This document shows positions 35,426 to 51,719 of a DNA stretch of 64,000 nt, one piece after another. Position numbers and translations under genes: made by a program. The notes under the pieces were generated by a model. It worked only from the letters and a program-made list of their open reading frames with translations, ran no database searches and had not been told where the DNA came from. Each line of letters opens with the position of its first letter. Position 1 is the stretch's first letter. Origin of the DNA: Psychrobacter sp. P11G3 (GTDB lineage Bacteria > Pseudomonadota > Gammaproteobacteria > Pseudomonadales > Moraxellaceae); assembly GCF_001435845.1 (NCBI RefSeq), contig NZ_CM003596.1, positions 1,736,001 to 1,800,000 of the forward strand, given 5' to 3'.

Positions 35426-36166
35426 ATGACCTATTGTGCTGCCATTCGTCTAAAAGACGGTATGGTCTTTGCCAGTGACACACGCACTAATGCCGGTGTT
35501 GATCACATATCAACATTCAGAAAGTTGTATCAATACGGCGTTGAGGGCGAGCGCTTTATGGTGTTACAGACAGCTGGTAGCTTAGCGACATCGCAAGCAG
35601 TGTTCAATAAACTACAAAGCGACATTGACCAGCGTGCTGAGAGCAACCTCAATACGGTAGCGACGTTGTTTGATGCTGCGCAAATGGTTGGCGAATGTAT
35701 GCGTGAAAAGATGAACCATGCAAAAGCAGTCGCTAACTCTAGTCGCGATGGCGCCTTTACCAGCTCGTTTATGCTTGGCGGTCAAATCAAAGGACAGCCA
35801 CCTGAGCTATACCTAATCTATCCTGAAGGCAATTGCATCAAAGCCACAGAAGATACGCCCTTTTTTCAATTAGGTGAAAGCAAATATGGCAAACCTATTT
35901 TGGATCGTTCTGTCAGCTATAACACGGATGTAAGACACGCAGCCCGCGCATTAATGCTATCATTTGATTCCACGATTCACTCAAATCTATCAGTCGGTAT
36001 GCCGATAGATTTTGTACTTTATGACAATGACAGCCTAGCTCTGCCCAATGGCCGACGTATTGATGAGCGTGATGAGTACTTTAATACGATTCGTCATCAG
36101 TGGTCAGATGCGTTACGTCGGACTTTGGTTGAATTGCCTAAATGTCCTGATGGTTATTGGGGATAA
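35426..36166 (+). CDS. Anbu proteasome-related Ntn-hydrolase (COG3484)
   Basis: A 246-residue peptidase of the ancestral beta-subunit family related to HslV and the 20S proteasome. The second residue is threonine (MTYCAAIRLKDGMVFASDTR), which becomes the catalytic N-terminal Thr1 after Met removal, and the Asp/Lys surroundings (DGMVFASDTRTN, FRKLYQYG) fit. Anbu proteins form open lock-washer or ring assemblies without a known ATPase partner. The preceding ATP-grasp/alpha-E and transglutaminase genes belong to its conserved neighbourhood. Two terminators follow the stop codon. Confidence 0.92.
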   Translation: MTYCAAIRLKDGMVFASDTRTNAGVDHISTFRKLYQYGVEGERFMVLQTAGSLATSQAVFNKLQSDIDQRAESNLNTVATLFDAAQMVGECMREKMNHAKAVANSSRDGAFTSSFMLGGQIKGQPPELYLIYPEGNCIKATEDTPFFQLGESKYGKPILDRSVSYNTDVRHAARALMLSFDSTIHSNLSVGMPIDFVLYDNDSLALPNGRRIDERDEYFNTIRHQWSDALRRTLVELPKCPDGYWG

Positions 36167-36197: not shown

Positions 36198-36303
36198 TAA
36201 AAAGCCTTTTGTGATAGACAAAGGGCTTTTTTATTGTCAACTAATAATCAGGCAATAAAAAACCGGAATAGCGCTGAATAAACAGCCCTAATCCGGTTTT
36301 GCT
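36198..36303 (+). terminator. Two tandem hairpins after the Anbu gene
   Basis: A first hairpin with AAAAAGCC and GGGCTTTTTT arms (about 36199-36233) ends in a T-run. A second pairs AAAACCGGA (about 36259-36267) with TCCGGTTTT (36292-36300). Both are suited to stop transcription of the Anbu operon. The second could also end a minus-strand transcript coming from the retron RNA at 36346-36589. Confidence 0.78.
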
Positions 36304-36345: not shown

Positions 36346-36589
36346 GTTGTGTAATCTACCTCATAACCTGGTACATGGAAGACTCACTGGACTGCACCTA
36401 GATAACGGCCCTAGTGCATTAGCTCAATCACGATTGCGTGATTGCGCCAGCGAGCTAATGACACTAGGGCCGTTATCTAGGTATTAGCAGGACTGAAACA
36501 GTCTTCCTTGGGTAAAATGTAATGGCTTGACTCGTGGACGACGCAACGTCGCCCCTCACCGTAAACGGTGAAACGCTAAATCTCACAAC
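36346..36589 (-). ncRNA. Predicted retron msr-msd RNA, divergent from the retron operon
   Basis: Read on the minus strand the region has every part of a retron RNA in order. a1 is at 36589-36577; it pairs with a2 at 36358-36346 over 13 positions with one mismatch and two G-U pairs. Directly after a1 comes AGC, the usual branching-guanosine context, with the G at 36576. Two msr stem-loops follow: a 6-bp stem at 36571-36556 and a 5-bp stem at 36551-36539. The msd hairpin (36507-36377) has an outer 8-bp stem (GGAAGACT/AGTCTTCC), a perfect 21-bp stem, an 8-bp stem with a short bulge between, and an inner 8-bp hairpin. The predicted RNA plus DNA length (about 240) is close to that of the Myxococcus Mx162 retron. 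The plus-strand reading lacks the AGC and has the small stems on the wrong side. No clear promoter was pinpointed upstream. Confidence 0.78.
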
Positions 36590-36694
36590 TCGTTAAGTTT
36601 GCCTCATAACAGTTATTATTGTCAATATATAATTGCAAATAAAATCATGCGCGACGCTATATGTCGCAGCCCATATACTTCCTTACAAAAGTCC

Positions 36695-36774: not shown

Positions 36775-39700
36775 ATGAGTCTGTCATTTTCACAAATTCA
36801 GCAAGCTTGGCAAGCCCAAGATCCAAGTTTGGTCGATAAATTATGTACATTGGCAACTCAAGCTGATGCGATCCCCGAGACGCCCACCCCTGAGCATGAG
36901 CTTACTTTTGATCGGTTTTTAGATAAGATATTTAGTCGTCAGTTTCGGGAGCAACACCCCGAAGTACAGTTTGCAGAGCGCGTGGCAATGATTGCCAAAC
37001 TGGAAGCAGACGAAGGCGTTTACCCCCTCCCAGATCGCTACAAAATCCACATAATACTGACCGCACTGTGGGAAGATGGCAGTGCGTATTCTAGAACTAT
37101 TCTAAAACAAGCCATTACGGCTTTGCCAGTCAGCTATGGTGTGTGGAAGGGTTTAAAGCGTATTTACAAGCAAGCAGAATTTTCTCAAGATTATGAGATA
37201 TTTGGGCAAATAGCCGCCAAGATTGATTTACAGCGTTTCAATCAAACCGCCAACTCTGCGGTCAGCCTAGCTACCAAAACCTATATGAGCCTTAGAGCAT
37301 GGCGTTATTTGCGCCAGCTAGGACAGCAAATGCCAATTGGCTACATTGATGTCGCCGTTTCTGTACTCGCCAGCTATGACGAAACTATGACGGCTGGCAG
37401 CCTTGAACAAACGAACAGCTGGGTGCTCAATCACATTTGCTTCCATAACAGCCTTGATTATGGGGTCAATCGATTCAGCAGCCGCTCACCTCGCAAGCTC
37501 TTTGACGCTAAAGGTCGCGCGTTCTCTGAGGCGTGGCAACGAGACCCAGAACCACTTATCCAGCTATTGGCTATCGCCAAAAACGAGGCTATCAGACAGT
37601 TCGCAACCGATAGCCTAAAACTCGACTTTAAGACCCAATTACGTGATGTGAGTGGTGAGACGCTACAATATTTATCTGCCGGACAAGCGCACAGCAAAGC
37701 GCGTGATGAGATGATAGTTTGGCTATTGGAAAACTCACCGCATTTTGAAAAGTCTAAATTTCAAACATTGGGCTTGCATCAAGTGGTACTGCAGCTACTC
37801 CATTCACACTATCCTACCGCCTATCAATATGCGATTAGCTATGCCAAAAGCTACGCTCAAGACTTATCGCTCACTGAACTGATGCTACTGGCAATGTCAG
37901 ATTATGAGCCTGTTAGAGCATTTGCTATCAACAACATCTTAAGTCGTGATCCTGTTGCTGATATCGGTGTCAACGGTTGGGGTCAGCTATTAGACACAGA
38001 GCATCACTATCAAACCGCGAGCAAACAACTTAGCAAACACTTTACGAGGCGCGATTTAACCCCTGAGTGGTTTTTTGAACGACTGACTAGCGGTAGAACA
38101 CACAGCGTAAAGTTTGCGATAAAAAAACTGCCTGAGCTTTATAGTGCCAAAGAGCTAGGGACTGAATACTTTATTAGCGTTGCCCAGCAGCTTGACATAC
38201 CAGAGCAACAGGACTTCTCTGCTCATAATGGTAGTTACTACAATGCTAGTGATTGCAATGATAGCGACTGCATGGACTTTACGTTGGACCAGCTCAGACG
38301 TTTGGATTTGAGCCAAGTAAATGCGGCAGTATGGCAAACACTGCTATTACACCCACTATCACAATCGACTATTACCGATTGGTTTGATGAGGATATACTG
38401 TCAGCCGCGACGCTTGATATGAGCTATTGGCATGCACTTGCCTATGAGCCTGACTGGCAAGTGAGTGAATATATTGAACAGTTAAAATCTGCTGATACTC
38501 CTACTAAAAACTGGCAAAAGCATTTGGCCTTTGATGAAAATTTAGCAGAAACCGTGCGAAATTGGCTGTCTGATGTGCGTCGGTTTGCGCCGATAGATCT
38601 AGGTTTCGACTGGCTTATGAATCTTGCGCATAGCGATCAGGCACTCTATCGTGAATTTGCGATTGAGCGCATCAACAAAGGGTTCTTGCCTGCCGACTTT
38701 ATCGCTTATCTCGACAGCAATGAAGGCGACTCTACTGATAACGCTTCCAGTACTGGCACTGACAATAAAGACTCAAATAGCGATGCTGCTACTAAAGTAG
38801 ATTTAACCGGCCAACGCTATTTATTCACGGGCAAGATGCAAAGCATGACTCGTGGCGAGGCCGAAAAAGTTGTGAAAGCAGCTAATGGTGCCATCAGTGG
38901 CGCTGTCAACGGCAAGTTAGATTACTTGGTCATCGGTGATGATGGTTCACCGTTATATGGCAATGGCCGTAAAGGTAGCAAGCAAGTGAAAGCCGAAAGC
39001 TTAATCGCCGATGGTGCTGCCCTAAAAATTATTTCCGAAACCGCTTTTTTACAGATGCTGAGCGGTCAATCGAGAGAGGTATCTGAAGACGATACTTTTT
39101 CAGGTGCCAACGCACTGTGGCATATGGCAACAGATGATGCTACTGCACCTATCAGTGAGCTTGCGATCAGCTACCTCAGTCATCATCATGAACAGATCTG
39201 CATGGCACTGACAGACAGACCAGTCGATCCCGATGCGATTATCCCTTCTTCGTTCTTTAATGCGGAGCGTGTCATTCCTTTGTTGCAACACCGTAACAGC
39301 CAGCTGCGAGAATTTGGCTTGTTACTGAGTGAGTATGAGATGGCGACGTGGCAACCAACGCCAGCCCTATGGCTGATGATGGCAGAATCTCCCTATACTG
39401 AGGTCACGCAACTGCTGAAGCGTGCGCTATTGGATAAGCCCTCTGTTGCCAATCGACGTTATCACGTTCAGTCAGCACAATTGAATGCTGGCATGCTGAA
39501 TGCGTTGATTGAAAGCAAAGCGCGAGTCGCTCGCCAAATCGGTATCACCTTGCTGCAGCATCATGCCAATTTCCAAGATGTGCAGTCTTTATATCGATTG
39601 ACCCAAAGCACAGACCGTGAAGTACGTTATGCCGCCGTGACCATGCTATGGAAACACTATAAGGCGCGTCACGTCTCCCCAAACTGGAAACCAACCAGTA

Positions 39701-40206
39701 GCGATAGTAAAGATAAAGATGCTGCTCAAGATAAAGACAACAGCGCTCAATCAGTCATAACAGAGAAGTCAGATAAACATTTGGCAAGCTTGCCTGCAGA
39801 AGTTGATCAATTATTGATGCTGCTACGCCGTGGTCTTTTTGAGCTACCACCTGGCCGTCTAGGCGGTTCGCAAGAGCCAAGTACTAGTGACAGCAGTAAG
39901 CATAAGCAACAACGCTACTCAGATAAAACCTCAGCATCATCACAGTCATATGAGGCAGCTGAGTCAGATAGTAATATCACACTAAAACCCATATCTGCGA
40001 GTCGTGCCAAACTGGCGTTGATTGAGACCTTTCGTGATGTGGCGTTGGCTGATAGCACCTTTGCGGCGCTCATTATGCCCACACTGTTCACCTTTACGCA
40101 CTCAGCAGGCAAGATGGAGCGTCATGCGTGTTTGGTTGCCGTCACACGGTTATTGCATCGCTATCCTGAGCTATCTAAAAATCTGCAGCCCGTGGCATCG
40201 GCTTAA
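36775..40206 (+). CDS. Retron-operon protein 1: HEAT-repeat protein with an internal BRCT domain
   Basis: A 1143-residue, mostly helical protein with no signal peptide. Degenerate HEAT/ARM-like repeats are visible before and after the middle (for example EPVRAFAINNILSRD and DREVRYAAVTMLWKHYKARH). Residues about 674-764 form a BRCT domain of the DNA-ligase/RFC type (LTGQRYLFTGKMQSMTRGEA, KLDYLVIGDDG, KAESLIADGAALKIISETAF). BRCT domains bind DNA ends or phosphoproteins. Low-complexity Ser/Asp linkers flank it (about 655-672, 975-995 and 1035-1075). It is the first gene of a four-gene operon that ends with the retron reverse transcriptase. TAAGG precedes the ATG. I infer a sensor or scaffold role in a retron defence complex. 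Confidence 0.8.
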   Translation: MSLSFSQIQQAWQAQDPSLVDKLCTLATQADAIPETPTPEHELTFDRFLDKIFSRQFREQHPEVQFAERVAMIAKLEADEGVYPLPDRYKIHIILTALWEDGSAYSRTILKQAITALPVSYGVWKGLKRIYKQAEFSQDYEIFGQIAAKIDLQRFNQTANSAVSLATKTYMSLRAWRYLRQLGQQMPIGYIDVAVSVLASYDETMTAGSLEQTNSWVLNHICFHNSLDYGVNRFSSRSPRKLFDAKGRAFSEAWQRDPEPLIQLLAIAKNEAIRQFATDSLKLDFKTQLRDVSGETLQYLSAGQAHSKARDEMIVWLLENSPHFEKSKFQTLGLHQVVLQLLHSHYPTAYQYAISYAKSYAQDLSLTELMLLAMSDYEPVRAFAINNILSRDPVADIGVNGWGQLLDTEHHYQTASKQLSKHFTRRDLTPEWFFERLTSGRTHSVKFAIKKLPELYSAKELGTEYFISVAQQLDIPEQQDFSAHNGSYYNASDCNDSDCMDFTLDQLRRLDLSQVNAAVWQTLLLHPLSQSTITDWFDEDILSAATLDMSYWHALAYEPDWQVSEYIEQLKSADTPTKNWQKHLAFDENLAETVRNWLSDVRRFAPIDLGFDWLMNLAHSDQALYREFAIERINKGFLPADFIAYLDSNEGDSTDNASSTGTDNKDSNSDAATKVDLTGQRYLFTGKMQSMTRGEAEKVVKAANGAISGAVNGKLDYLVIGDDGSPLYGNGRKGSKQVKAESLIADGAALKIISETAFLQMLSGQSREVSEDDTFSGANALWHMATDDATAPISELAISYLSHHHEQICMALTDRPVDPDAIIPSSFFNAERVIPLLQHRNSQLREFGLLLSEYEMATWQPTPALWLMMAESPYTEVTQLLKRALLDKPSVANRRYHVQSAQLNAGMLNALIESKARVARQIGITLLQHHANFQDVQSLYRLTQSTDREVRYAAVTMLWKHYKARHVSPNWKPTSSDSKDKDAAQDKDNSAQSVITEKSDKHLASLPAEVDQLLMLLRRGLFELPPGRLGGSQEPSTSDSSKHKQQRYSDKTSASSQSYEAAESDSNITLKPISASRAKLALIETFRDVALADSTFAALIMPTLFTFTHSAGKMERHACLVAVTRLLHRYPELSKNLQPVASA

Positions 40207-40308
40207 CGGCTTTGGCAAACAGATATAGATAAATAGCTACTAGCAAGCTTTTATATTCAAAAAAAGATACTCAAAAAAATATGACGTCACCTCAACTGAG
40301 ATAACACA

Positions 40309-43300
40309 ATGAAAACAATAACACTCCCCTATTGGGGTCAAATTATGGGCTTAGTCAGTAAGGCCAACAGTACCCAAGCGGCAACTCAAAAGACAACCAA
40401 GCAAGATGGGCGCAGTCTTTTTATTACTCGTCAGCAGCAAGCATCTGCTACGGTCTTATACGTCCTTGATCAACAAGGTGAACAATTTAGCTTATCGACA
40501 ACTGCGCTGCCTTGTGCGATGCAAGCCATCACCAAAATAGATGACAGCACTATTATTATGATTGGTGATGATGGTCATCTTTATCAAACGGATTGGCAAG
40601 CCAAGAAAGTTAAGAAGACCAGTGCCAAATCCTTGCTCGATGTACCTAAAAATAACAACAATGCTATAGGCCATGCTGTAGCAATGGCACCACTACAATA
40701 TGCGTTGGCTATTCTATACCCAAAACATATCGTAGTATGGCCTTATCAGGAAAGCCAAGCCAGCAGTACTGTCATCATTGAACCTTATTCGTCTTCTATA
40801 GCAGCATCAAGTAAGGAGCCTGCATTAACCGCGCTAACAACGTCAAGTGATGGCTCGTGGTTAGTCGTAGCAGATAAAGCGGGAGATGTTAGTAGCTATC
40901 AATGGGCATCAGATGGTGCTCAGCTTAATCTAAGTAGCCGCAAACAGCTCCATCAAGGTAAAGTGAACGCGCTTTGTTTTGAGCCGGTCGGTCAATACTT
41001 CTTCTCAGCAGGTGCAGATAAGTGCTTATACCGTACTCATGTCCAAGGCGACCTGCACCCTGTTGATAGAGCCAAGTCTAGCCAACACAGTGAAATGATC
41101 ACGGCGCTTTGTGTGTCAGACACTCGGCTATTCACTGCCGCCGATGATAAAAGTGTTAAATCATGGGCATTTGATAAAGGTCAGCCAAACAGCTGTAAAG
41201 AGGATCTAACCAAGGCGCGACAGATCGTCTTATCTTCTTACGCTGAACAACCAACGCTCATCGTAGTCAGTGCTGATCAGAGCTTACGTTTTATACCTAT
41301 TGACCACACTCAAAGTACATCACAGAATAGTACATCAAAAAATAGCAAGCTATTGCCAGTCACTTATATCATCAAAGACGGCTATCAGAGAATCGGCCAA
41401 TTACTGACAGATACTTCAAATAATAATAATGTTTCGTTTAAAGAAGGCTTGGCGCTGCTACAGGCGCAAGCAGACAACCAAACGTTAGAGCTGGTTAAAA
41501 AATTACTTGCTGATAGCGACACGCTCACGGCCAATCAAGCATTGCAATTGGTACAGTGGGTTGCTACTACTAATCTTGATAAAACTGCACAGGTTTTAGA
41601 GCAGCAACTAAGCTCGGCGCACAGTGCAAAAGTACGTCTTGCTGCTTTTCATGCCTTGGCCGACCACGCAAGTACGTCGAAGCGCCCGCTGCATTATTTA
41701 GAAGAAGCCTTTAAAAACCGTTACTACGAAGAAGTGGTGGCTTCTGCGTTACAAGGTTACCTAAAGGTCGCAATGAAGGATGCCACCAGCCAGCGCCGCA
41801 TCTTACCTATTTTAAGAGAGGCGTTGTCACACAGTTTTGCGAATATTCGCAAGCAAGCATTGGCCTCACTTGAGACGCTGTTGCCAGACAACAGTCCGCA
41901 AGCAGATTTGATGGCATTAGACTGCAATCAGCCAGACATTGTCCAATCAGGGTTAATTCGTCTGTATCAGCGCGGTATGCTAAACCATCTTGAAGTCTCG
42001 CGTCAGTTGATGCTGCTACAGAATCATCGTAATACAGAGATTAGGCAAACGGCATTTTATGTCTCATTACTGTCTCAACCCAAGTTGATAGAGGCTTTGA
42101 AACAGCAAGGCGACACGCAAACATTGCGTACCCTGTCTGATTTTGATGACTTTCGCTTACTACGTGGCACGCTACTAGATAACGCTAGTAGCACAGCGGC
42201 GAATGATAATAATGTTAAACAATCCGATGAGGCGATCCGTTTAACCTTATCTACACAAGATTTTATCTCGCAAGCAGATAATACCCAAGCATCTAAAAGT
42301 AAGGCTAAAACGGCAAAATCCAAGAAGCCTGCTACTGAATCCATAAATCTAGGCAATGACACGTTAGAGCCCTTATTACAAAGCTTAAGCAATAGTCACG
42401 AAGATATCAGTTTCCGAGCGGCTTATGCGCTGGCTTGCCTACAAGACAAACGTGCGTTTGGCACCCTGATTAGTCTGATGAGCCATGATGACAGCGCCAT
42501 CATCCGTGCTGGTGTAGCCACTGCGCTTGGCCACTTAAATATAGAAGACGCCAAAGCAGTCCTACCGACATTACTAGACGATAAGGACGCTGGCGTGCGC
42601 CAAGTGGCTATGCAAGCCTATGGTAAGTTGGCAGATAATGCATTGTCTTGGGCGGCGACAGGTTTTGCTTCTAAACATCAAGACATTCATGAGCAGTCTT
42701 TATCACTGTTTTTAAAGCATGTTGCACCAGATAGCTCAAATAGTGGTGATAGCAGTGACAAAAGCGCTCAGATGTCGTCAGAGATGACAGACATACTGCT
42801 ACAGGCATTGAACAACCCTTTTACCAGTATTCGGTTAGAAGTGGTTAAAGTTCTATTAAACCGCCAATTTAAGCAGTCATCTGACAGCGCCATCGTTGAC
42901 ATCATTGAGCTATTGCAGCAGAGCCTCTTTGAAGATGTGCATCAAGTGGCGATAGAAGAATGGCAACGACTGTTGCTGTCGATGAACTCGAAGCATAAAA
43001 CAAATAAAGTTGAAGAAACTGATAGTCAAAAAACCAATCAAGCCGTCCTGACCCTGTTCTTTGCAGATACGTTTGCCGCTATCCGTAAGCAAGCCTTTGA
43101 CATCGCACTTAAGCAAAGCAAGCATTTAGGGTTTGCTGACGTCATGCTGAACGCGCTTGCCAGCCCTTATGCGGACACTAAGCAACTGGCCCTTGCGACA
43201 GTGCAAGCCAGAGCGAATACGACTCAGCTGACACAGTTGATGCCAGCTCTCGTGGCTATGTTCGCTGATGACAGTATTGAGCTGCGTAAACAAGCCTTGA

Positions 43301-46300
43301 CGGTTGCTTTGGCGCTAACAGACTTACAGCCTACTATTTTAGCGGATCACAATAGCCTAGATAATAGTAGCACCGATGATCAATCAAATCATCACGAAGC
43401 ATTGATTACCGCAGCCTTAAACAGCCCTTATCCTGACATCCAACTGACAGTCGCTCAACTACTGGCCAGCCAATCACGCCTCTATGCTGACGAAGAACAG
43501 GCACAGCGGAGTGACGAACAAGCGTACGAAGTCTTTAAACACTATCTAGAACTGCCTATGCCCCCTCAAGGCAAGAAAAGTGACAGCTATACCCAGTGGC
43601 ACAATCATGTAAGCCAAGCGCTGTCTGGCTTGTCTAAACTGGCATACCCATCAAAGCATGATGCACTAGGTTGGTATGCTAAATATCTACACCACCCTGA
43701 TGCTGATTTTAAACTTCTTGCATCAAAGATTACGCAGATAGTCTCGCTTGAGGACATTGATCTACTGGTGAAATGGCAGAAAGATGAACACGCCATTATC
43801 AGTCAATCAGCCAGTTTATGTTTGGCTATTTTAGGTGACGCTCGCGGGCAGTACTTCCTTACTCATGATATGGGAGACGAAACAGACAATCTTAGTACGT
43901 TTGTTGCACCGATGACCCCTACGCATTGGCTACAAGCGCAGCACGGCTTAGGTATTACGCATGCACGGCAAGTACAGCCTTTGTTTGAGTCAGAGTCCTA
44001 TGCCGTAGCAGCCAGACTACTATTGATATTTAATGATTTACAGAATGGCTTGCAAGATAGCCTGCAAGCTACTAAAACAGACACTACTAGTACTGGTCGA
44101 CCCAACCGACTGATAGAAACATTAAGCTTTGCGGATAATGACACGGCAGTAGTCTATGCCAACATACTCGCTCGTTACCCGAATGACGTACAACGCCCTA
44201 GTAGTCAGCCAGCATTATTGTCAGCGTGGCAGTACCTAAGTGATTACTTGTCACGTCAATTAGGCAGTGTTTTATCTTCTCACTCTGAAGTCATCACGAT
44301 GATGGATGCCATACCAAACACGGCAGATAAAGGTGGTGTTAAAGGACAGTCGCATAATACGGCCTCTATCCGAGCAAGTATTCTAACGACGGTAAGTACC
44401 GAAAACTTACAACAGCTCGCCAACCTCAATCGACATCAGCAGCCATTGGTACGCGCGCAAACCATTAGTGTCATTTGCCACTTATCTGAACTACTCGCCC
44501 ATGACTACTATGACGATGAGGACGATGTTTTTGAGACATTGCAAAAATGGCAACGCAGTTTGCAGGCATTGTTAAGTGCTCACCCCGCTACAGCCGCTAT
44601 TAATATGGCAGGCAATGCACAAACAGTAGATAGCTCTCCTACTGACAAACAAGACAGTCAGGAAGTACATTATCCTTACCAGTCTCTTGCCTTTGGCGCT
44701 TGGATTGGCGTCATACGCGCAGGCGATGATTATTATGCGAATAGCAGCACCACAGACCAAGCCATTCGAGGGCTAATGTGGCTTGCTACTCAATCATCGG
44801 CGTTTGATACTAATAACAATGAGGACTGGCGAGACAGTACCAGTCGTGTGTTGTTGCCACTACTGAACCACAGTAGTTTTGACACTCGTGAGCTGGCTTG
44901 GACATGCTTGTATAAGCTAGACATGCCTGCCAAAAAGCTGGCTGACTATGCCATGAGCACGCCCTACCGTGATATGGTCAAACGCGGCTTGGATCTATTG
45001 CTAGATACCTCAAATAACAATGCCGTAAAGCAGCAAAGCAAACCATCGGATACAGCTACTGTCAGTAGCGCTGATCAACAACTCATTGACCTATTAAAAA
45101 CCAATAATCATACCTTAGCAGAAGAGACCTATCAGCTGCTAAAAGGCCGACTAGGCCATCTGCCTGCTAGCTTACTTGGGCTACAGACCTATTGTCAGTC
45201 GTTACTACCTCAGATCGTTGCTGAATGGAAACAAGTCATCGTAACACCCTTTGCAAACAGTCAATCGCCGTCAGTGCAGCGTCAAGACAAACTGACGTTT
45301 TTGCTGCACGCTGTGAAGAGTGATGATTGGAATGCAAAATATCAAGCACTGAGTCAACTGGTCGAGTTTTATGACGTACTCTTTGCGGACAGCACGCTAT
45401 TTGATAGCTTATTTGATTTTGCTGAAGACGCTCAAGCGAGCAATGAAAAGTACCGTAGCTGGAATTTGCTTGTCGATGCACTCACGTCGTACCAATTCAT
45501 CAATAAGAACACTTTAGAGGGTCGTTTAAAGAGTGGTTTAGAGAGTAGCTTTAATATTGCGACTGCTGAACAGGTCGCCAATGAGGCGCACTTACGATTA
45601 CTAGCCTTACTCAATGATCCACATATCAACAAACCTAAGCAGTTTATTTATAGTGATATCGCTGACCTGCGTAACACAAATCTCGTGGCGCCATTGCTAC
45701 AACGTTTAGAAAGTCTGTTTGAGCACACGCCGCAAAAAAATAAAGAAGAGCGTAAATATTTATTTGATACCTTAGTAAAAATCAGCGGTTACGATCAAAA
45801 CATCGATGACTATCTAGATGAGCGTGAAGACACGCGTTGGTTACAACGTCAGCACCCTAGGGACTCGCAAATCTTGTTGTCACTGTTTACTACGCTTATG
45901 AATCATAGTGATTATGCGCTTGCCGCGCAGCTATTACCGTCACTGGCATGGGTACAATCGGACGACAATGATTTATCCTCGCGCATTGATACTGCTTTAG
46001 CGCTCGCCTACGAGCAGATGCCAGCTAACCATACCTTTAAATTGGTCGAGGCACTGGCATATCGAGCCAAAAGACGGCACGGCAGCATTGCTTCATTACA
46101 AAACGCTCTACGCAATAAAGACGCCGATGTGCAATTTGCCGCGGCTGAAGGATTGGCTAAGTGCGGTCATGCTGATGGGGTCAATATCTTGATGGCAACG
46201 ATAGATTATAACCCTGATGCTGAATTCCGCAGCTGCAGTGTGCTGGCCATTGGTGAGTTGCTAGGCAGCAGTAACAACCAAAACCAAAATACTCACTCGC

Positions 46301-48009
46301 CTAATGCTAGCTCGCCTGCGGACAACGCTGATAAAAACTTACAAGTTCATACCTTATACAAAGCCTATGATAAGTTAATCAAACTGGCCGAGGACGACGA
46401 GCACTACTTACAAGACGTGGCCAGTGAAGCCTTAGGTCGCCTTGCACAAGGTGGTGACTTTGAGCATAGTCCGCATATTTTTGAGCTATTAAAATCGCAC
46501 TTGTCAGACCCCGCAGTCCATTTCACCAATCCCGCCATTGTCCATTGGTTAAATGGATTACGCTGGCTGAATACAACGCCTGCTTGGGAACAAATCCGCA
46601 GCTATATACGCACTCATCTTGATAAAGCCATATTTTTCCGTCCGCAAAGGCATGCGGTATGGCTACTGCAGATGAATGATAACGATGCCAATAAAGCATT
46701 AATCTTAGATATTTTAAAGCAGAATAATTTAGACCGTACTGTGCTTATGGCGGCTTATACGGCGGCACAGAAAACTTGGGGCAGTCTCGCGTCGCAGGTT
46801 TACCCTTATGATTGGGCAGCCATTCAAAGCCATAATACTGACTTTATAGAAGAAACTGAGCATTTGAGTCTAAAGCGTATCATTGATAATAGCAGCATCG
46901 ATGAGCTGACAGCATTTATCACCCAGCATGGCGCGCACTTACCAGCCGACACCTTGATGGCACTGCAAAATGCCATTATGGCCAAGCAAGACATGCCAAC
47001 ATCGCAGCTTACCGCGTTGATTAGCAGTAACAACACACTGACACAGCATATTGGACTGTGCTATCTGACCCAATATCCGACCAGCTATCTTGATAAAGAG
47101 ATGGTTGCGATGTTGCAGCAGCGTTTTGACACTGCAAGCGAGCAATGGCACACGCTTATCGATACCATCAACCGCAGTCCGACGACCATCAATAATAGTC
47201 AGTGGATTAGCATGGTTGAGCAAGTAGGCACCACCATCTCGCAACTGGTGTGGTTAATCATGCGTCATGTTTCTATCACAACTGCTAAAGGTGCTGTCGA
47301 TAAAGCGGCTACTAAGCAGATCGCGGCAATGCTTGATTGGCTCAATGATGCGCGTCAACCATTGACCATCACCTCTATTCCACTGCTCTCTACGACGGTT
47401 AGTGATTGGTGGCAGCAAGCGCTGTTAGCATTACTGGCCAGACCTGTCGCTGAAGATAAGATGCTATCAAGCATCGTGCCAACGTTGAGCACTGTATCAG
47501 CTACAGCTCAACCGCAGCTCGCTTATGACAACAAATCCTTGCTAGGAACTGTGATTGCTCGTATTGAACAAAGCGGTACATCTACCCAAAAATCCATAAT
47601 AACTGTAGTAAAGAATGCGCTGAAACATAAGGGCTCGTCTACCGAGATACCAATCAATCAACAGCTGCTACAGTGGATCAGAGCCAAAGACGCTGATGCA
47701 CTCTATCATTGTGCGAGTAATGACAACATGGAGCTGACGGTTCGTATCCGTGCCATCGAAGCGCTTGGACAGCTACATGATCCAAATATTGAACAGTGGC
47801 TGACGACGCTCATGGCACATGAAAATCCAGACATTCAGAAGCTTGCTTATAAAGTACTACGCCGCTGGCAACGTGCCATGATACGAGCACAGCAAAAGCG
47901 TCCGTTGTCATCTGGCAATATGGAGGCGCAACCTAGCTCGACCATCACAGCACAAAATAGTCAGGACAGCAGTCAAAAAAGCAATCAGGGTGAAGGAGAC
48001 AGTCAATGA
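40309..48009 (+). CDS. Retron-operon protein 2: giant beta-propeller/HEAT-repeat protein
   Basis: At 2566 residues this is the largest gene of the window. The N-terminal ~360 residues look like a WD40-type propeller (HQGKVNALCFEPVGQYFFSA at about 215 and HSEMITALCVSDTRLFTAAD at about 261). The rest is a long array of HEAT repeats, clear at about 690-790 (DISFRAAYALACLQDKRAFG, IIRAGVATALGHLNIEDA, GVRQVAMQAYGKLAD) and at the very end (TVRIRAIEALGQLHDPNIEQ). No enzymatic motif was found. Its stop overlaps the next start (ATGA at 48006-48009), so translation is coupled. A start at 40345 is possible. The architecture suggests a large curved scaffold that senses or is gated by the retron RNA-DNA hybrid. 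Confidence 0.82.
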   Translation: MKTITLPYWGQIMGLVSKANSTQAATQKTTKQDGRSLFITRQQQASATVLYVLDQQGEQFSLSTTALPCAMQAITKIDDSTIIMIGDDGHLYQTDWQAKKVKKTSAKSLLDVPKNNNNAIGHAVAMAPLQYALAILYPKHIVVWPYQESQASSTVIIEPYSSSIAASSKEPALTALTTSSDGSWLVVADKAGDVSSYQWASDGAQLNLSSRKQLHQGKVNALCFEPVGQYFFSAGADKCLYRTHVQGDLHPVDRAKSSQHSEMITALCVSDTRLFTAADDKSVKSWAFDKGQPNSCKEDLTKARQIVLSSYAEQPTLIVVSADQSLRFIPIDHTQSTSQNSTSKNSKLLPVTYIIKDGYQRIGQLLTDTSNNNNVSFKEGLALLQAQADNQTLELVKKLLADSDTLTANQALQLVQWVATTNLDKTAQVLEQQLSSAHSAKVRLAAFHALADHASTSKRPLHYLEEAFKNRYYEEVVASALQGYLKVAMKDATSQRRILPILREALSHSFANIRKQALASLETLLPDNSPQADLMALDCNQPDIVQSGLIRLYQRGMLNHLEVSRQLMLLQNHRNTEIRQTAFYVSLLSQPKLIEALKQQGDTQTLRTLSDFDDFRLLRGTLLDNASSTAANDNNVKQSDEAIRLTLSTQDFISQADNTQASKSKAKTAKSKKPATESINLGNDTLEPLLQSLSNSHEDISFRAAYALACLQDKRAFGTLISLMSHDDSAIIRAGVATALGHLNIEDAKAVLPTLLDDKDAGVRQVAMQAYGKLADNALSWAATGFASKHQDIHEQSLSLFLKHVAPDSSNSGDSSDKSAQMSSEMTDILLQALNNPFTSIRLEVVKVLLNRQFKQSSDSAIVDIIELLQQSLFEDVHQVAIEEWQRLLLSMNSKHKTNKVEETDSQKTNQAVLTLFFADTFAAIRKQAFDIALKQSKHLGFADVMLNALASPYADTKQLALATVQARANTTQLTQLMPALVAMFADDSIELRKQALTVALALTDLQPTILADHNSLDNSSTDDQSNHHEALITAALNSPYPDIQLTVAQLLASQSRLYADEEQAQRSDEQAYEVFKHYLELPMPPQGKKSDSYTQWHNHVSQALSGLSKLAYPSKHDALGWYAKYLHHPDADFKLLASKITQIVSLEDIDLLVKWQKDEHAIISQSASLCLAILGDARGQYFLTHDMGDETDNLSTFVAPMTPTHWLQAQHGLGITHARQVQPLFESESYAVAARLLLIFNDLQNGLQDSLQATKTDTTSTGRPNRLIETLSFADNDTAVVYANILARYPNDVQRPSSQPALLSAWQYLSDYLSRQLGSVLSSHSEVITMMDAIPNTADKGGVKGQSHNTASIRASILTTVSTENLQQLANLNRHQQPLVRAQTISVICHLSELLAHDYYDDEDDVFETLQKWQRSLQALLSAHPATAAINMAGNAQTVDSSPTDKQDSQEVHYPYQSLAFGAWIGVIRAGDDYYANSSTTDQAIRGLMWLATQSSAFDTNNNEDWRDSTSRVLLPLLNHSSFDTRELAWTCLYKLDMPAKKLADYAMSTPYRDMVKRGLDLLLDTSNNNAVKQQSKPSDTATVSSADQQLIDLLKTNNHTLAEETYQLLKGRLGHLPASLLGLQTYCQSLLPQIVAEWKQVIVTPFANSQSPSVQRQDKLTFLLHAVKSDDWNAKYQALSQLVEFYDVLFADSTLFDSLFDFAEDAQASNEKYRSWNLLVDALTSYQFINKNTLEGRLKSGLESSFNIATAEQVANEAHLRLLALLNDPHINKPKQFIYSDIADLRNTNLVAPLLQRLESLFEHTPQKNKEERKYLFDTLVKISGYDQNIDDYLDEREDTRWLQRQHPRDSQILLSLFTTLMNHSDYALAAQLLPSLAWVQSDDNDLSSRIDTALALAYEQMPANHTFKLVEALAYRAKRRHGSIASLQNALRNKDADVQFAAAEGLAKCGHADGVNILMATIDYNPDAEFRSCSVLAIGELLGSSNNQNQNTHSPNASSPADNADKNLQVHTLYKAYDKLIKLAEDDEHYLQDVASEALGRLAQGGDFEHSPHIFELLKSHLSDPAVHFTNPAIVHWLNGLRWLNTTPAWEQIRSYIRTHLDKAIFFRPQRHAVWLLQMNDNDANKALILDILKQNNLDRTVLMAAYTAAQKTWGSLASQVYPYDWAAIQSHNTDFIEETEHLSLKRIIDNSSIDELTAFITQHGAHLPADTLMALQNAIMAKQDMPTSQLTALISSNNTLTQHIGLCYLTQYPTSYLDKEMVAMLQQRFDTASEQWHTLIDTINRSPTTINNSQWISMVEQVGTTISQLVWLIMRHVSITTAKGAVDKAATKQIAAMLDWLNDARQPLTITSIPLLSTTVSDWWQQALLALLARPVAEDKMLSSIVPTLSTVSATAQPQLAYDNKSLLGTVIARIEQSGTSTQKSIITVVKNALKHKGSSTEIPINQQLLQWIRAKDADALYHCASNDNMELTVRIRAIEALGQLHDPNIEQWLTTLMAHENPDIQKLAYKVLRRWQRAMIRAQQKRPLSSGNMEAQPSSTITAQNSQDSSQKSNQGEGDSQ

Positions 48010-50267
48010 CTATAGATAATCAATTAGACCGAGCATCAGAAACAGAGTCAGAAGTAGTAGCAAACACTGATGGCCTGATGATGCAGTTGGACTACGCCGC
48101 ACCTAGCCAGATTAGTCAAGTTAACGAATCGTCAGACTCACTGTCGGAGGCGCAAACGACCGAACACACTCAGCATGTGGCTCTATTTGCTCAGTTGAAT
48201 CGATCGGAGGTTAACTTCCACGGTAAGGTCAAGTCTCCCCTGGTTTTTCGTGACAGTTTGCTAGCCTTATTTGATGTGGTCAGTAGTGATTATCGCTATG
48301 TGCCAAAAGACCGCTCAGCGTATACGGTATTTATGCAGATGCGCCGTGCCAGCAGCAACAAAAACCTATTTACTGCGCAGCGTGATTATTTCACGTGGCT
48401 ATTCGATAATGACCCACTGGCTTTTTGTATTTTGGACCCGATTATTCAGGTGCATGAGCAAGGTGTTAGCTTTGAGGTGTTTAGCCGTGATGAAGGCTGC
48501 TATGCCCAGCTGACATTGACCAATGAGATTTTTGAGCAAAATACTAAACCTACTCTTGGCACCACCAACATTGATTACAGTACGGCTTTGTTTAACGGTA
48601 TTGAGAAAATACGCGATCATCAACAAACGATACTAGATATCGGTCATGAAGCGGTCGGCTTACAGTTACTCGAAGCCAAACCAGAAACAGCTGAAGCAGA
48701 TACGGATAGTACAGTAACCAAGCCCACCGTAAAAAAACAGATCATAGAAAAGCGCATCAACGTGCCCAAAAGCTGGATCAGAGCGCTGCTACAAGTACAG
48801 TCTGCAGGTCAATTACCACAAGACACCATCCATCTCGATCCAATCGCACTGTATAACGTGCTATTTGAGCTGCGTATGCATGCTGATATCAAAGGCAAAC
48901 GCCGTGGATTATTAATTGAGCTTAGACCCCAGCAGCTGCCAGTGATTATATTAGAGCCATTTGATATTACTGTCACAAGCCAAATCAGCCAACAGCAAAA
49001 ACCCTATCAAGGTCAACAAGCAAAGCTGATTCGCTTATGGGGTCGCCGTCGTCTCAGCCTATTAAAACGTCTGTTGCCACATACTGATAGCGTTTCGGTG
49101 TCGCTACTGGGTCAAGGCATGCCAAGCTATTGGACACTAAAAGGCAAAGGCTTTCATTTTACCTTTGCTATGACAGGCTTTAGCCAAGCCAACTGGTCAC
49201 AGTCATTGAACTTTGACTTGTTACTGCCAAAGCGCCCACTGCATAATACATTAGTTACCAATGAAAGCTTGTCAGACAGTGGTAAAGCAACCTTAGATGA
49301 CAGCAATAATGATAGTAACGATGAGCATAATGGCTTGTCTGTATTAATTAAAACACTGGCAAATACCCCCAGCAATCTAGAAGACTTGGTAAAGTCGCTA
49401 TCAGCAGATGCTTCATTAACGTCTGTGCCTGTTTCTCACTCACAAGTACAGCAATGGTTACTGTCAGGTACTCAGCAGGGCTTGATTCGCTATGATGTGG
49501 CGACGCAGCTGTATCATTACAGACCATTGACCCAAGCACCTCTTGATATGGCGCAGTTCGCGTATCACAATGAGGCAGAAAAACAGGCCTTTGATTTGAT
49601 TAGCCGTACGGATGCCGTGCAGAGGTTCTCTGTCGAGACAGTCGCTGTCAAAGGTATTACCATCCGTGCAGATATTCATGTCGAAGAAGACAGACGTACT
49701 TATCACAGCCAGCTACAATTAGGCGATGAAGGGATAGTCACCAAGGCGGAATGTAGCTGTCCGCAGTACTTGCAGCACCGACTCACACAAGGCGTGTGCG
49801 CGCATCTTATTGCGCTACGACTTAGATATAATCAATACGACCCAAATAACACGGGCAATGACAGCTGGCATGACACTCGTGTCTTGAGTAAACGCGTACC
49901 GAGCAAGCGCTTACATCAGCCTAAGAATAAAAAAGAAAGCGTACAAGTAGCAGCCCATAGCTCGTTAATGACATTACCTGTTGCAACGACACTTGATTTG
50001 ACGGCCTTAGCTCAACCAGTTGCCCAGTCACATGCAACTGCAACTGCAACTGCAACTGCAAGCGATAAGACACAAGCGTTAACCGCACAAGAGACCGCTA
50101 TTGCTTATGTTTACATCACCATTGCCCATAAGAAGATTACCATTGAACAAACAATAGGTGACAAGGATACGCGCCAGCAGCTGGTGTTCAATCAGCCTGC
50201 CCAAGCCAAAGCCGCATTTTTACAACATATTGCCAGATTTGAAGCCAAAGGCTTTATCGAAAACTAA
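48006..50267 (+). CDS. Retron-operon protein 3: SWIM zinc-finger protein
   Basis: A 753-residue protein with a SWIM zinc finger at C583-x-C585-x12-C598-x-H600 (AECSCPQYLQ ... GVCAHLIAL), preceded by a region with winged-helix-like segments (VSHSQVQQWLLSGTQQGLIR). SWIM fingers bind DNA or proteins. It overlaps the preceding gene by 4 bases and lies 12 bases before the reverse transcriptase gene. Proteins described as WHSWIM accompany the retrons I recall as type XIII, which fits. The C-terminal part holds an Ala-Thr run (SHATATATATASDK) encoded by a GCAACT repeat. The effector activity is unknown; a DNA-binding partner of the reverse transcriptase is the simplest reading. Confidence 0.85.
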   Translation: MTIDNQLDRASETESEVVANTDGLMMQLDYAAPSQISQVNESSDSLSEAQTTEHTQHVALFAQLNRSEVNFHGKVKSPLVFRDSLLALFDVVSSDYRYVPKDRSAYTVFMQMRRASSNKNLFTAQRDYFTWLFDNDPLAFCILDPIIQVHEQGVSFEVFSRDEGCYAQLTLTNEIFEQNTKPTLGTTNIDYSTALFNGIEKIRDHQQTILDIGHEAVGLQLLEAKPETAEADTDSTVTKPTVKKQIIEKRINVPKSWIRALLQVQSAGQLPQDTIHLDPIALYNVLFELRMHADIKGKRRGLLIELRPQQLPVIILEPFDITVTSQISQQQKPYQGQQAKLIRLWGRRRLSLLKRLLPHTDSVSVSLLGQGMPSYWTLKGKGFHFTFAMTGFSQANWSQSLNFDLLLPKRPLHNTLVTNESLSDSGKATLDDSNNDSNDEHNGLSVLIKTLANTPSNLEDLVKSLSADASLTSVPVSHSQVQQWLLSGTQQGLIRYDVATQLYHYRPLTQAPLDMAQFAYHNEAEKQAFDLISRTDAVQRFSVETVAVKGITIRADIHVEEDRRTYHSQLQLGDEGIVTKAECSCPQYLQHRLTQGVCAHLIALRLRYNQYDPNNTGNDSWHDTRVLSKRVPSKRLHQPKNKKESVQVAAHSSLMTLPVATTLDLTALAQPVAQSHATATATATASDKTQALTAQETAIAYVYITIAHKKITIEQTIGDKDTRQQLVFNQPAQAKAAFLQHIARFEAKGFIEN
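50034..50061 (+). repeat. GCAACT hexanucleotide microsatellite inside the SWIM gene
   Basis: Four full copies of GCAACT plus a partial copy, coding for alternating Ala-Thr. Six-base units cannot shift the frame, so slippage would only change linker length. Confidence 0.9.
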
Positions 50268-50279
50268 GGGATGTAAGGT

Positions 50280-51719
50280 ATGACCACACACACAGCCAAC
50301 AATAACGATTACATCAGCCCTGAGCCAGTACCCACTCCTTTTGAGCGTCAGTGGCAGCAACTATGGCAAGATATTGAGCTGGCAGGCGGACGTTACCAAT
50401 ATGTTCAGCAGCAGCTGGTCAGTCAAGGCTTTATGGTCGAGCGTCAACCTGTCGATAACATGAGCCCAAAAGAACGGGATCGCTATAAAAAAGCCTTAAA
50501 AAAGGAAGCAGCTGAAGAAAAAAGTCTCAAAAAAGCTGCTTGGCAAGCATACAAAGCGCATCACATGGTTTACCTTGGTCGTCATGTATATTGGACGGAC
50601 GATACCAGTATCGATAAGTGGGACGTAAAAGACGCGGCCAATCGGCTGATTGAAAACAAGCTGCCACTGCTGCGTAAACATAATGAGTTAGCAGAAGCGG
50701 TTAACCTTTCCATTCCGCAGTTAAAAGGATTGTGCTATCAAAGAGAAGTTGCCACCAATCTGTCTTATTCGCATTTTACTATTGCCAAACGCAATGGGAC
50801 AGCACGTCAAATATGGTCGCCGATACCACGTTTGAAGTTTGTACAACGCTGGATTTTGCATAATATTTTGAATAACTTAACGACGCATGGTGCCGCCCAT
50901 GGCTTTGTACGCGGAAAATCCATCGTGACCAACGCGGCAGTACATAGCAATAGTGAGCTCCTTATTAAGCTTGATGTCAAAGATTTCTTTCCTAGCGTGA
51001 GCTGGCGCCGTGTCAAAGGGGTCTTTCGTCATGCTGGCTATCCAGAGCAAATTTCGACATTACTGGCATTACTCTGTACGGAGTCCCCTAGGCAAGTGGT
51101 ACAGCAAGATGGCGTTACCTACTATGTGGCATTAGGTGATAGAGCCTTGCCACAAGGCGCGCCTACCAGTCCGGCATTAACGAACATTGTTTGCTTAAGT
51201 CTGGACCACCGCTTGACAGGGTTGGCAGAAAAATTGGGGCTACGTTATAGTCGTTACGCCGACGACTTGACCTTTAGTGTTCCTGCTATTGAAGACATCA
51301 AACCCAAATCGAAGGCTAAAACAACGATTAAAGCCACGACCAGCACCGCAAAGAAACAAGCCGATGCGCAGCACAACAGGCTAATCGGGCAACTGCTCGG
51401 CTCAGTCCATAAGATATTACGCGAAGAAGGTTTTGCGTTAAATAATGATAAGACACATGTGATTCGTAAAGGCAATCAGCATAACGTTACTGGCATGGTG
51501 GTCAATGGACAAGGCGTACCTAGGGTATCTCGTCAAATCAAAAAAATGTTGCGGGCGGCGGTACATAACCTAGAGACAGGCGGCACATTACGCACGGATG
51601 AGACTTTGAATACGCTGTCAGGATATGCCGCTTGGATAGCCTCGGCAGAGCCAGAGTTGGGACATAGTTATCTAGATAGGATTGAGCGTTTGCAAGTGCA
51701 GCAAGAGACACCTGCATAG
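50280..51719 (+). CDS. Retron reverse transcriptase
   Basis: A 479-residue reverse transcriptase. Retron-specific marks are present: NAxxH (TNAAVHSNSELLIKLDVKDF, N at about 218), the LPQGAPTSPALTN block, the catalytic YADD at 326-329 (YSRYADDLTFS), and VTG at 403-405 (HNVTGMVVNG). The N-terminal ~150 residues form an extra domain, as in the long myxobacterial retron enzymes such as that of Mx162 (about 485 residues). A Lys/Ala-rich insert of some 25 residues (about 338-362) separates the YADD and VTG regions. It should prime from the 2'-OH of the branching G of the RNA predicted at 36346-36589 and make a branched RNA-linked ssDNA. Maturase or diversity-generating features are absent. Last gene of the operon, 12 bases after the SWIM gene. 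Confidence 0.93.
   Translation: MTTHTANNNDYISPEPVPTPFERQWQQLWQDIELAGGRYQYVQQQLVSQGFMVERQPVDNMSPKERDRYKKALKKEAAEEKSLKKAAWQAYKAHHMVYLGRHVYWTDDTSIDKWDVKDAANRLIENKLPLLRKHNELAEAVNLSIPQLKGLCYQREVATNLSYSHFTIAKRNGTARQIWSPIPRLKFVQRWILHNILNNLTTHGAAHGFVRGKSIVTNAAVHSNSELLIKLDVKDFFPSVSWRRVKGVFRHAGYPEQISTLLALLCTESPRQVVQQDGVTYYVALGDRALPQGAPTSPALTNIVCLSLDHRLTGLAEKLGLRYSRYADDLTFSVPAIEDIKPKSKAKTTIKATTSTAKKQADAQHNRLIGQLLGSVHKILREEGFALNNDKTHVIRKGNQHNVTGMVVNGQGVPRVSRQIKKMLRAAVHNLETGGTLRTDETLNTLSGYAAWIASAEPELGHSYLDRIERLQVQQETPA

Follow-up and report, generated by a model that had tools for sequence, protein, structure and literature searches.

A type XIII retron msr-msd RNA gene predicted to run away from its operon in Psychrobacter

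The minus strand of positions 36346-36589 in Psychrobacter sp. P11G3 very probably encodes the msr-msd RNA of a type XIII retron, as an autonomous, trans-acting gene that was inverted once in an ancestor of the Psychrobacter systems. Positions are those of the window, by which we mean the whole 64,000-nucleotide stretch analysed here. Retrons are reverse-transcriptase systems thought to defend against phages, and their RNAs are commonly described as adjoining the reverse transcriptase (RT) gene and running in the same direction. The usual retron feature, an msr-msd region co-transcribed with the RT in one direction, is not seen here, the RNA lying on the minus strand and the RT on the plus strand. 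The RNA is still classed as a retron RNA, because direction is a matter of arrangement and not a functional requirement, and because homologous RNAs elsewhere are codirectional with their operons.

Structure of the RNA Gene

Read on the minus strand, the 244 nt of the RNA gene hold, in this order, a1, an AGC trinucleotide, two hairpins, a long hairpin and a2. These are all of the elements that a first-pass annotation of the window had named, in the order that it gave. The gene, from a1 to a2, is delineated by its fold, by a 22-row alignment of Psychrobacter loci (A1), by covariation and by a match to R1, a model of the msr part; this match covers 36493-36590 on the minus strand with 72 bits, the window being one of the 33 rows from which R1 was built. 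R1 finds a single copy of the RNA in the source genome. A search of the window against Rfam at gathering thresholds gave no matches.

All parts described here are on the minus strand. The a1 segment, GTTGTGAGATTT (36578-36589), is the same in all 22 rows of A1 and pairs with the a2 region (36346-36360), which is placed by A1 and by this pairing; the two form the inverted repeats that flank retron RNAs. The first-pass annotation had proposed that a1 and a2 pair with one mismatch, and pairing around an internal mismatch is what both the fold and the alignment give. The resulting helix 1 has 12 pairs and is paired in 100% of cells; 10 of the pairs are invariant and so uninformative, and two vary on one side. 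Directly after a1 lies AGC (36575-36577), the predicted branch site, with its G at 36576, which at the sequence level corresponds to the branch guanosine that adjoins a1 in retrons. From its position in known retrons, we infer that this AGC would be the site of branching. It is invariant in 22/22 rows of A1 and in 32/32 rows of a cross-lineage alignment (A4), the latter count being partly a matter of construction because an AGC situated 55-75 nt before the msd motif served as the cut point for the rows from outside Psychrobacter (none of 28 was without one).

The msr part contains hairpin 1 (36555-36572; helix 2, with two double-changed pairs and 99.2% of cells paired) and hairpin 2 with a TTG loop (36536-36554; helix 3, three double-changed pairs, 100% paired). 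The base of the msd is formed by a 5' arm around GGAAGACT (36500-36510) and a 3' arm around AGTCTTCC (36374-36384), which pair with each other and covary across lineages. The perfect 21-bp msd stem noted at first pass is present as an inverted repeat, with its 5' arm at 36462-36482 and its 3' arm at 36396-36416, and this middle stem (helix 7) has 11 double-changed pairs. A tip hairpin (36427-36442) closes the msd; its mean identity over all pairs of rows in A4 is 0.70. The msr hairpins and the long msd hairpin of a retron RNA are thus found here with conserved pairing. The predicted minimum free energy of the minus strand is -115 kcal/mol (z = -9.9 against 200 dinucleotide shuffles). Folding energy of a single sequence is unable to pick the strand, because the plus strand of 36346-36589 folds about equally well (z = -10.6), and the comparative data given below decide.

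The Type XIII Operon

The four genes that follow on the plus strand (36775-51719) all match PADLOC profiles of type XIII retrons, a numbering that reportedly comes from Mestre et al. 2020. The first (36775-40206) encodes a HEAT-ARM_XIII protein of 1143 aa (PDLC02921, 1120 bits). The second (40309-48009) encodes a HEAT-ARM_XIII protein of 2566 aa with a WD40-like N-terminus, which matches PDLC02919 with 875 and 1039 bits over the two parts scanned and has Pfam matches to HEAT repeats and a beta-propeller. The third (48006-50267) encodes a SWIM_XIII protein of 753 aa (PDLC02972, 511 bits), and the fourth (50280-51719) is the gene of a 479-aa retron reverse transcriptase, RT_XIII. The RT matches PDLC02956 with 514.7 bits against 281.5 for the next best profile, and its best relatives of solved structure are retron Ec86 RT chains. 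The operon thus combines an RT of the RT_XIII family with the HEAT-ARM and SWIM partners of type XIII. The RT gene starts 13.7 kb from the RNA, in agreement with the gap of some 14 kb claimed previously.

According to NCBIfam profiles that score under their cut-offs, residues 651-762 of the first operon protein (38725-39060) have relatives in the C-termini of NAD-dependent ligases; this is a stretch that we take to be BRCT-like. A second RT was considered as a partner of the RNA and rejected, the other RT of the genome being of the Drt2 family. This antiviral RT is encoded elsewhere in the genome (L002:1168-2499; G000:C1, near 3.135 Mb). Among plasmids, 150 records hold relatives of the operon's RT, all below 60% identity. 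Among viral contigs, six stretches came up and none held a confirmed relative of the RT; the motif pair of the RNA had no match in viral contigs.

Base Pairing in the msd

The share of G.U pairs differs among the parts of the RNA. It is 59/557 in the msr hairpins and 72/590 in a1/a2 and the other long-range pairs (11-12%), compared with 32/1152 in the middle and tip of the msd and 10/546 in its base (about 2-3%); in the longest helices it falls to 8/860. Fisher's test of the msr against the msd middle and tip gives p = 1e-10, a value that is indicative only, because the sequences are related. A G.U pair of RNA becomes a mismatch once it is copied into DNA, and the scarcity of G.U in the msd therefore fits a part that works as DNA. 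That the msd helices are nearly free of G.U is what would be expected if they are selected as DNA, and recent homogenisation of the two msd arms would yield the same pattern.

The longest helix has 20-31 uninterrupted pairs across lineages. Its sequence varies greatly, with a mean pairwise identity in A4 of only 0.31 in the middle stem, where the base reaches 0.80 and the tip 0.70. Three genomes (L136, L143, and L160) have two tandem RNAs per locus, upstream of the first gene; Limnoglobus roseus and Thiolinea disciformis are among the species with such copies. Between these tandem copies the msr is 0.94-1.00 identical and the base is near-identical, and the middle stems (identity 0.31-0.57) differ yet are well paired. 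These features would fit a bolder and still tentative reading, on which we would not bet, in which the type XIII RNA comes from a free-standing gene, acts in trans and can be turned round, relocated or duplicated independently of the operon, with a middle stem held as DNA, and the tandem copies supply msDNA baits or sensors. If so, tandem copies would give different DNA hairpins on a near-identical msr for one RT-HEAT-SWIM complex, and the middle stem would be kept Watson-Crick as DNA while its sequence itself would be free to change.

In L155:93-256 and in L172 (from 5766) the middle stem of the msd is missing, and in L165 (from 5823) the whole msd; either real loss or collapse of the palindrome during assembly would account for this. 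In L086:15130-15373 (a P. nivimaris record of the same genome as L127) the loop segment of the msd is inverted between the arms relative to the other rows of A1.

The same parts bear on the question of whether the RNA is reverse transcribed at all. It might instead be a structured RNA that is conserved along with the operon and regulates the HEAT and SWIM proteins or serves as their scaffold. msDNA formation is deduced here, and the literature consulted gave no mechanism for the HEAT, WD40 and SWIM proteins, which leaves some room for such a role. However, the order a1, AGC, msr hairpins, msd hairpin and a2 is that of a retron, the drop in G.U is limited to the msd, as expected if that part is selected as DNA, and the RT of the operon is a retron RT by profile. 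We regard a purely structural or regulatory RNA as improbable.

Strand and Transcription Signals

Support for the structure of the msr-msd RNA comes from the alignment of Psychrobacter loci. A1 has 22 rows, 17 of them distinct (L085, with its msd masked by N, and the partial L027 were omitted). RNAalifold on A1 gives 83 pairs, of which 19 are changed on both sides; counted over the distinct rows, double changes occur in 20/83 pairs, a number reached in 0/500 shuffles, with the caveat that related rows may exceed shuffles even where no structure is present. The cells of A1 are paired in 99.4% of cases, compared with 33-42% when the partners are slid by 1-3 columns. One of five covariation measures, the number of further pair types, does not rise above shuffles (388/500 as high). 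Across lineages, A4 contains 32 rows (5 from Psychrobacter and 27 others), leaving out L155, which has no middle stem, and the four RNAs that were found by R1. In this alignment, double changes are seen in 44/61 pairs, and there is little or no variation in AGC, in parts of msr hairpin 2, or in the base and tip of the msd.

The strand was read from the G.U pairs. Among 1411 pair cells in A1, 1402 can form on the minus strand and 1312 on the plus strand; 92 are G.U on the minus strand and C.A on the plus strand, and 2 are the reverse, a count with some bias toward the minus strand because the structure tested was itself predicted on that strand. The G.U cells are spread over a1/a2, the two msr hairpins and the msd. 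Homologous loci in which conserved structure and compensatory changes favored only the plus-strand order had been put forward as what would count against a minus-strand RNA. The result is the opposite, since the G.U pairs and the compensatory changes back the minus strand.

Signals flanking the RNA point the same way. On the minus strand, a -35 element, TTGACA (36620-36625), and a -10-like element, CAAACT (36596-36601; CANAAT in other loci), which lies 6 nt before a1, are conserved in the aligned loci of the genus, and a2 is followed by a terminator-like inverted repeat with a T run (I2, 36256-36300). In 23/23 aligned loci, the -35 hexamer (TTGACA in 21, TTGCCA in 2) is followed after 17-18 nt by a CANAAT-like hexamer that ends 6-7 nt before a1; the inverted repeat with its T run is recognisable in most of them. 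A generic promoter and terminator scan of the region listed neither the proposed promoter nor the proposed terminator, and its output was at chance level (2 sites against a shuffle mean of 2.0). The earlier proposal that the RNA has its own promoter is accordingly upheld by the conserved -35 and spacing and finds no backing in the scan, so that it rests on conservation. Before 28 non-Psychrobacter RNAs, a search by consensus score gave only 4 cases in which at most 10 of 200 shuffles scored as well; because this search was uninformative, own promoters are proposed for Psychrobacter only.

One could also suppose that both strands are transcribed and both matter, as described for Retron-Sen1 (Se72) in passages of PMC6868368. 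A plus-strand promoter-like site does lie between a1 and the operon (36606-36633). However, transcripts from this site would begin past the RNA and not run across it, the sites listed by the scan are no more frequent than in shuffles, and just two cells pair on the plus strand alone. We give use of both strands only a slim chance.

Orientation within Psychrobacter

Close relatives of the RT occur in 25 of 105 Psychrobacter genomes including the source (71-97% identity, two as split matches). The RNA is present in 28 of the 105 and occurs together with the RT in 24. Upstream regions were taken from 24 relatives, the 24th of which, L030, ends short of the region. The RNA is divergent from the first operon gene in all 24 loci that hold both, that is, in the window and in 23/23 relatives, and so the original remark that it runs away from the operon extends to the genus. 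The contig of L027 breaks off after 39 nt of the RNA; this genome carries a full RNA on a different contig, L229. In L095 and L096, the RNA is kept at 91% and the second operon gene at 37%, the RNA being more conserved than the proteins.

In the window, the RNA is preceded by a proteasome-beta-like gene (35426-36166), with a weak match to TIGR03634 under its cut-off. This gene precedes the RNA in part of the genus, and was not found on the fetched stretch of L032, L034, L035, L089-L093, or L095-L097; the RNA stays with the operon regardless.

Three genomes of the genus (L225, L226, and L227) have no operon and retain a decayed RNA, with 53 bits compared with 66-75 elsewhere. Only the first 78 codons of their first operon gene are left, abutting the neighbouring proteasome-beta-like gene at its codon 32. 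The RNA has lost three bases of msr hairpin 2 and, from the msd, one arm and the loop. The loss of the operon looks like one event common to the three genomes, and it is accompanied by decay of the RNA. G001, in which no RT match was found, has an intact RNA that lies at a contig end and so cannot be judged.

Orientation in Other Lineages

When GTDB genomes were scanned with the first operon gene, 79 named loci were recovered, 23 from Psychrobacter and 56 from other bacteria; the 23 are largely from the same genomes as the genus set and hence not independent of it. The pair of msd-base motifs is present in 21/23 Psychrobacter loci, all divergent (the remaining L113 and L120 are at contig ends), and in 25/56 of the others, all codirectional. 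R1 (the msr part, 33 RNAs, 8 base pairs) was applied to 52 sources, including the 31 other loci that lacked the motif pair, and added four codirectional loci: L151 and L180 with full RNAs, L172 without a middle stem, and L165 decayed. The RNA therefore precedes the same gene in 29/56 non-Psychrobacter loci (L165 being decayed, and L155 and L172 being without the middle stem), codirectional in 29 and divergent in 0. These loci span Thiothrix-group bacteria, Planctomycetota, Desulfobacterales, Zooshikella, a Verrucomicrobia MAG, and others.

In the other 27 of the 56 loci, neither the motif pair nor R1 found an RNA before the gene. L190 and L191, whose similarity to the query extends over about 90 residues only, are probably other genes; in L179, L188, and L189 the sequence starts within the gene, and in L141 the gene is preceded by 207 bases. 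L173 (Candidatus Uabimicrobium) has a full-length R1 match of 68 bits just downstream of the RT, on the same strand (L205:1413-1504). The remaining 20, mostly Myxococcota, are without explanation. In 10 mostly Myxococcota loci searched by R1 with filters off, there were just two weak matches near the RT (10.9 and 9.0 bits). A search for the RNA in 390 genomes of the order returned eight: the window, one Psychrobacter, and six others. Four of the six were inspected and were all codirectional; L230, L232, and L234 repeat the sequences of L184, L187, and L153, already counted, so that L235 alone is additional.

In other lineages, then, the strand homologous to the minus strand of the window runs in the direction of the operon before the same gene, which again is contrary to plus-strand support. 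A functional plus-strand RNA co-transcribed with the operon, with the minus-strand reading as its palindromic mirror, can be set aside almost entirely: the plus strand does fold well, and codirectionality is the usual arrangement, also among these relatives, but the minus-only cells outnumber the plus-only cells 92 to 2, the codirectional homologues correspond to the minus strand of the window, and the conserved -35/-10 spacing and T run fit that strand.

Among the loci examined, divergence is confined to Psychrobacter. In a quick tree of 53 first-gene proteins, the 13 divergent rows are on one branch (SH-aLRT 100), and one change of orientation is needed over the 42 rows with a state (11 without a found RNA were left uncounted). 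Long branches are flagged in this tree, including the one that joins Thiofilum to Psychrobacter, so that the nearest sister of Psychrobacter is unsure. The tree is also unrooted, and the direction of change rests on the codirectional state in all of the other lineages seen. Because a single change is enough, divergence looks like one inversion, and the simplest history that the tree suggests is that the RNA gene was inverted once at the base of the Psychrobacter systems.

More distant RT_XIII loci were also searched. In seven of them, weak R1 matches (12.7-22.9 bits, E 0.0027-1.5), mostly to msr hairpin 2, lie directly before the RT on the same strand, and a SWIM relative precedes the RT in 5/7 by tblastn. 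In a second set, such matches occur in 7/30 RT loci (12.9-20.6 bits). The repeated position of these weak matches makes an RNA adjoining the RT suggestive, and only that, in distant type XIII loci. Other weak matches (L101, L214, and L203 1964-2025, and on the opposite strand L195, L196, and L199) were taken as chance or palindrome.

A Proposed Model of a Trans-Acting RNA

The msr-msd RNA would be transcribed from its own promoter to its own terminator, away from the four-gene operon, and would fold with a1 paired to a2. The RT, supplied by the operon at a distance of 14 kb, would bind the msr in trans and prime from the 2'-OH of the G in AGC; copying of the msd would then give hairpin DNA of very roughly 140-155 nt, an estimate taken from the boundary of G.U use and from the conserved ends. 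Together with the RT, the msDNA would hold or tune the HEAT, WD40 and SWIM proteins, presumably in defence. Because an RNA of this kind would act in trans, an inversion of its gene in the common ancestor of the Psychrobacter systems could be tolerated. Conversely, the single turn suggested for that ancestor implies that the RNA probably works as a free-standing part.

The inversion may be regarded as a natural experiment, which suggests that co-transcription with the RT is not needed. RNA searches restricted to the strand upstream of the RT would miss such genes, whose homologues occur in several phyla. The RNA model also offers a handle on very large retron operons, and paucity of G.U may offer a simple way to test, from sequence alone, which stretch of a retron RNA is under selection as DNA.

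Comparison with Known Retrons

By the profiles of all four operon proteins, the system belongs with the type XIII retrons. The RNA genes of Thiothrix-group bacteria, Planctomycetota and others share with those of Psychrobacter the order of parts, AGC, msr hairpin 2, and the base and tip of the msd, as well as the site before the first operon gene; they differ in being codirectional (29/29) and, at three loci, in having two tandem copies. In the more distant RT_XIII loci, the weak matches suggest an msr-like hairpin immediately upstream of the RT and codirectional with it, whereas here the RNA points away from the operon and lies at a distance of 14 kb from the RT.

Among the matches listed from CC-licensed PMC articles, there was no report of a divergent retron RNA or of a type XIII RNA. 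As outlined in passages of PMC6868368, the classical retrons share with this system the a1/a2 repeats, a branch G, msr, msd and a dedicated RT; the same passages place the msr-msd of the 'standard' cassette upstream of the RT, and a part of PMC8867640 describes a single msr-msd-RT transcript. Two exceptions in the passages of PMC6868368 are instructive. Retron-Nex1 (Ne160) of Nannocystis exedens, with repeated msr-msd copies and no RT within a kilobase, is a precedent for an RNA far from its RT, and Retron-Sen1, whose msd is said to be transcribed both ways, is a precedent for unusual strand use. Neither, in these passages, has an RNA gene divergent before a multi-gene operon. What appears to be new in the Psychrobacter systems is thus the genetic arrangement, in which the RNA gene is separate and its orientation relative to the operon seems to be free.
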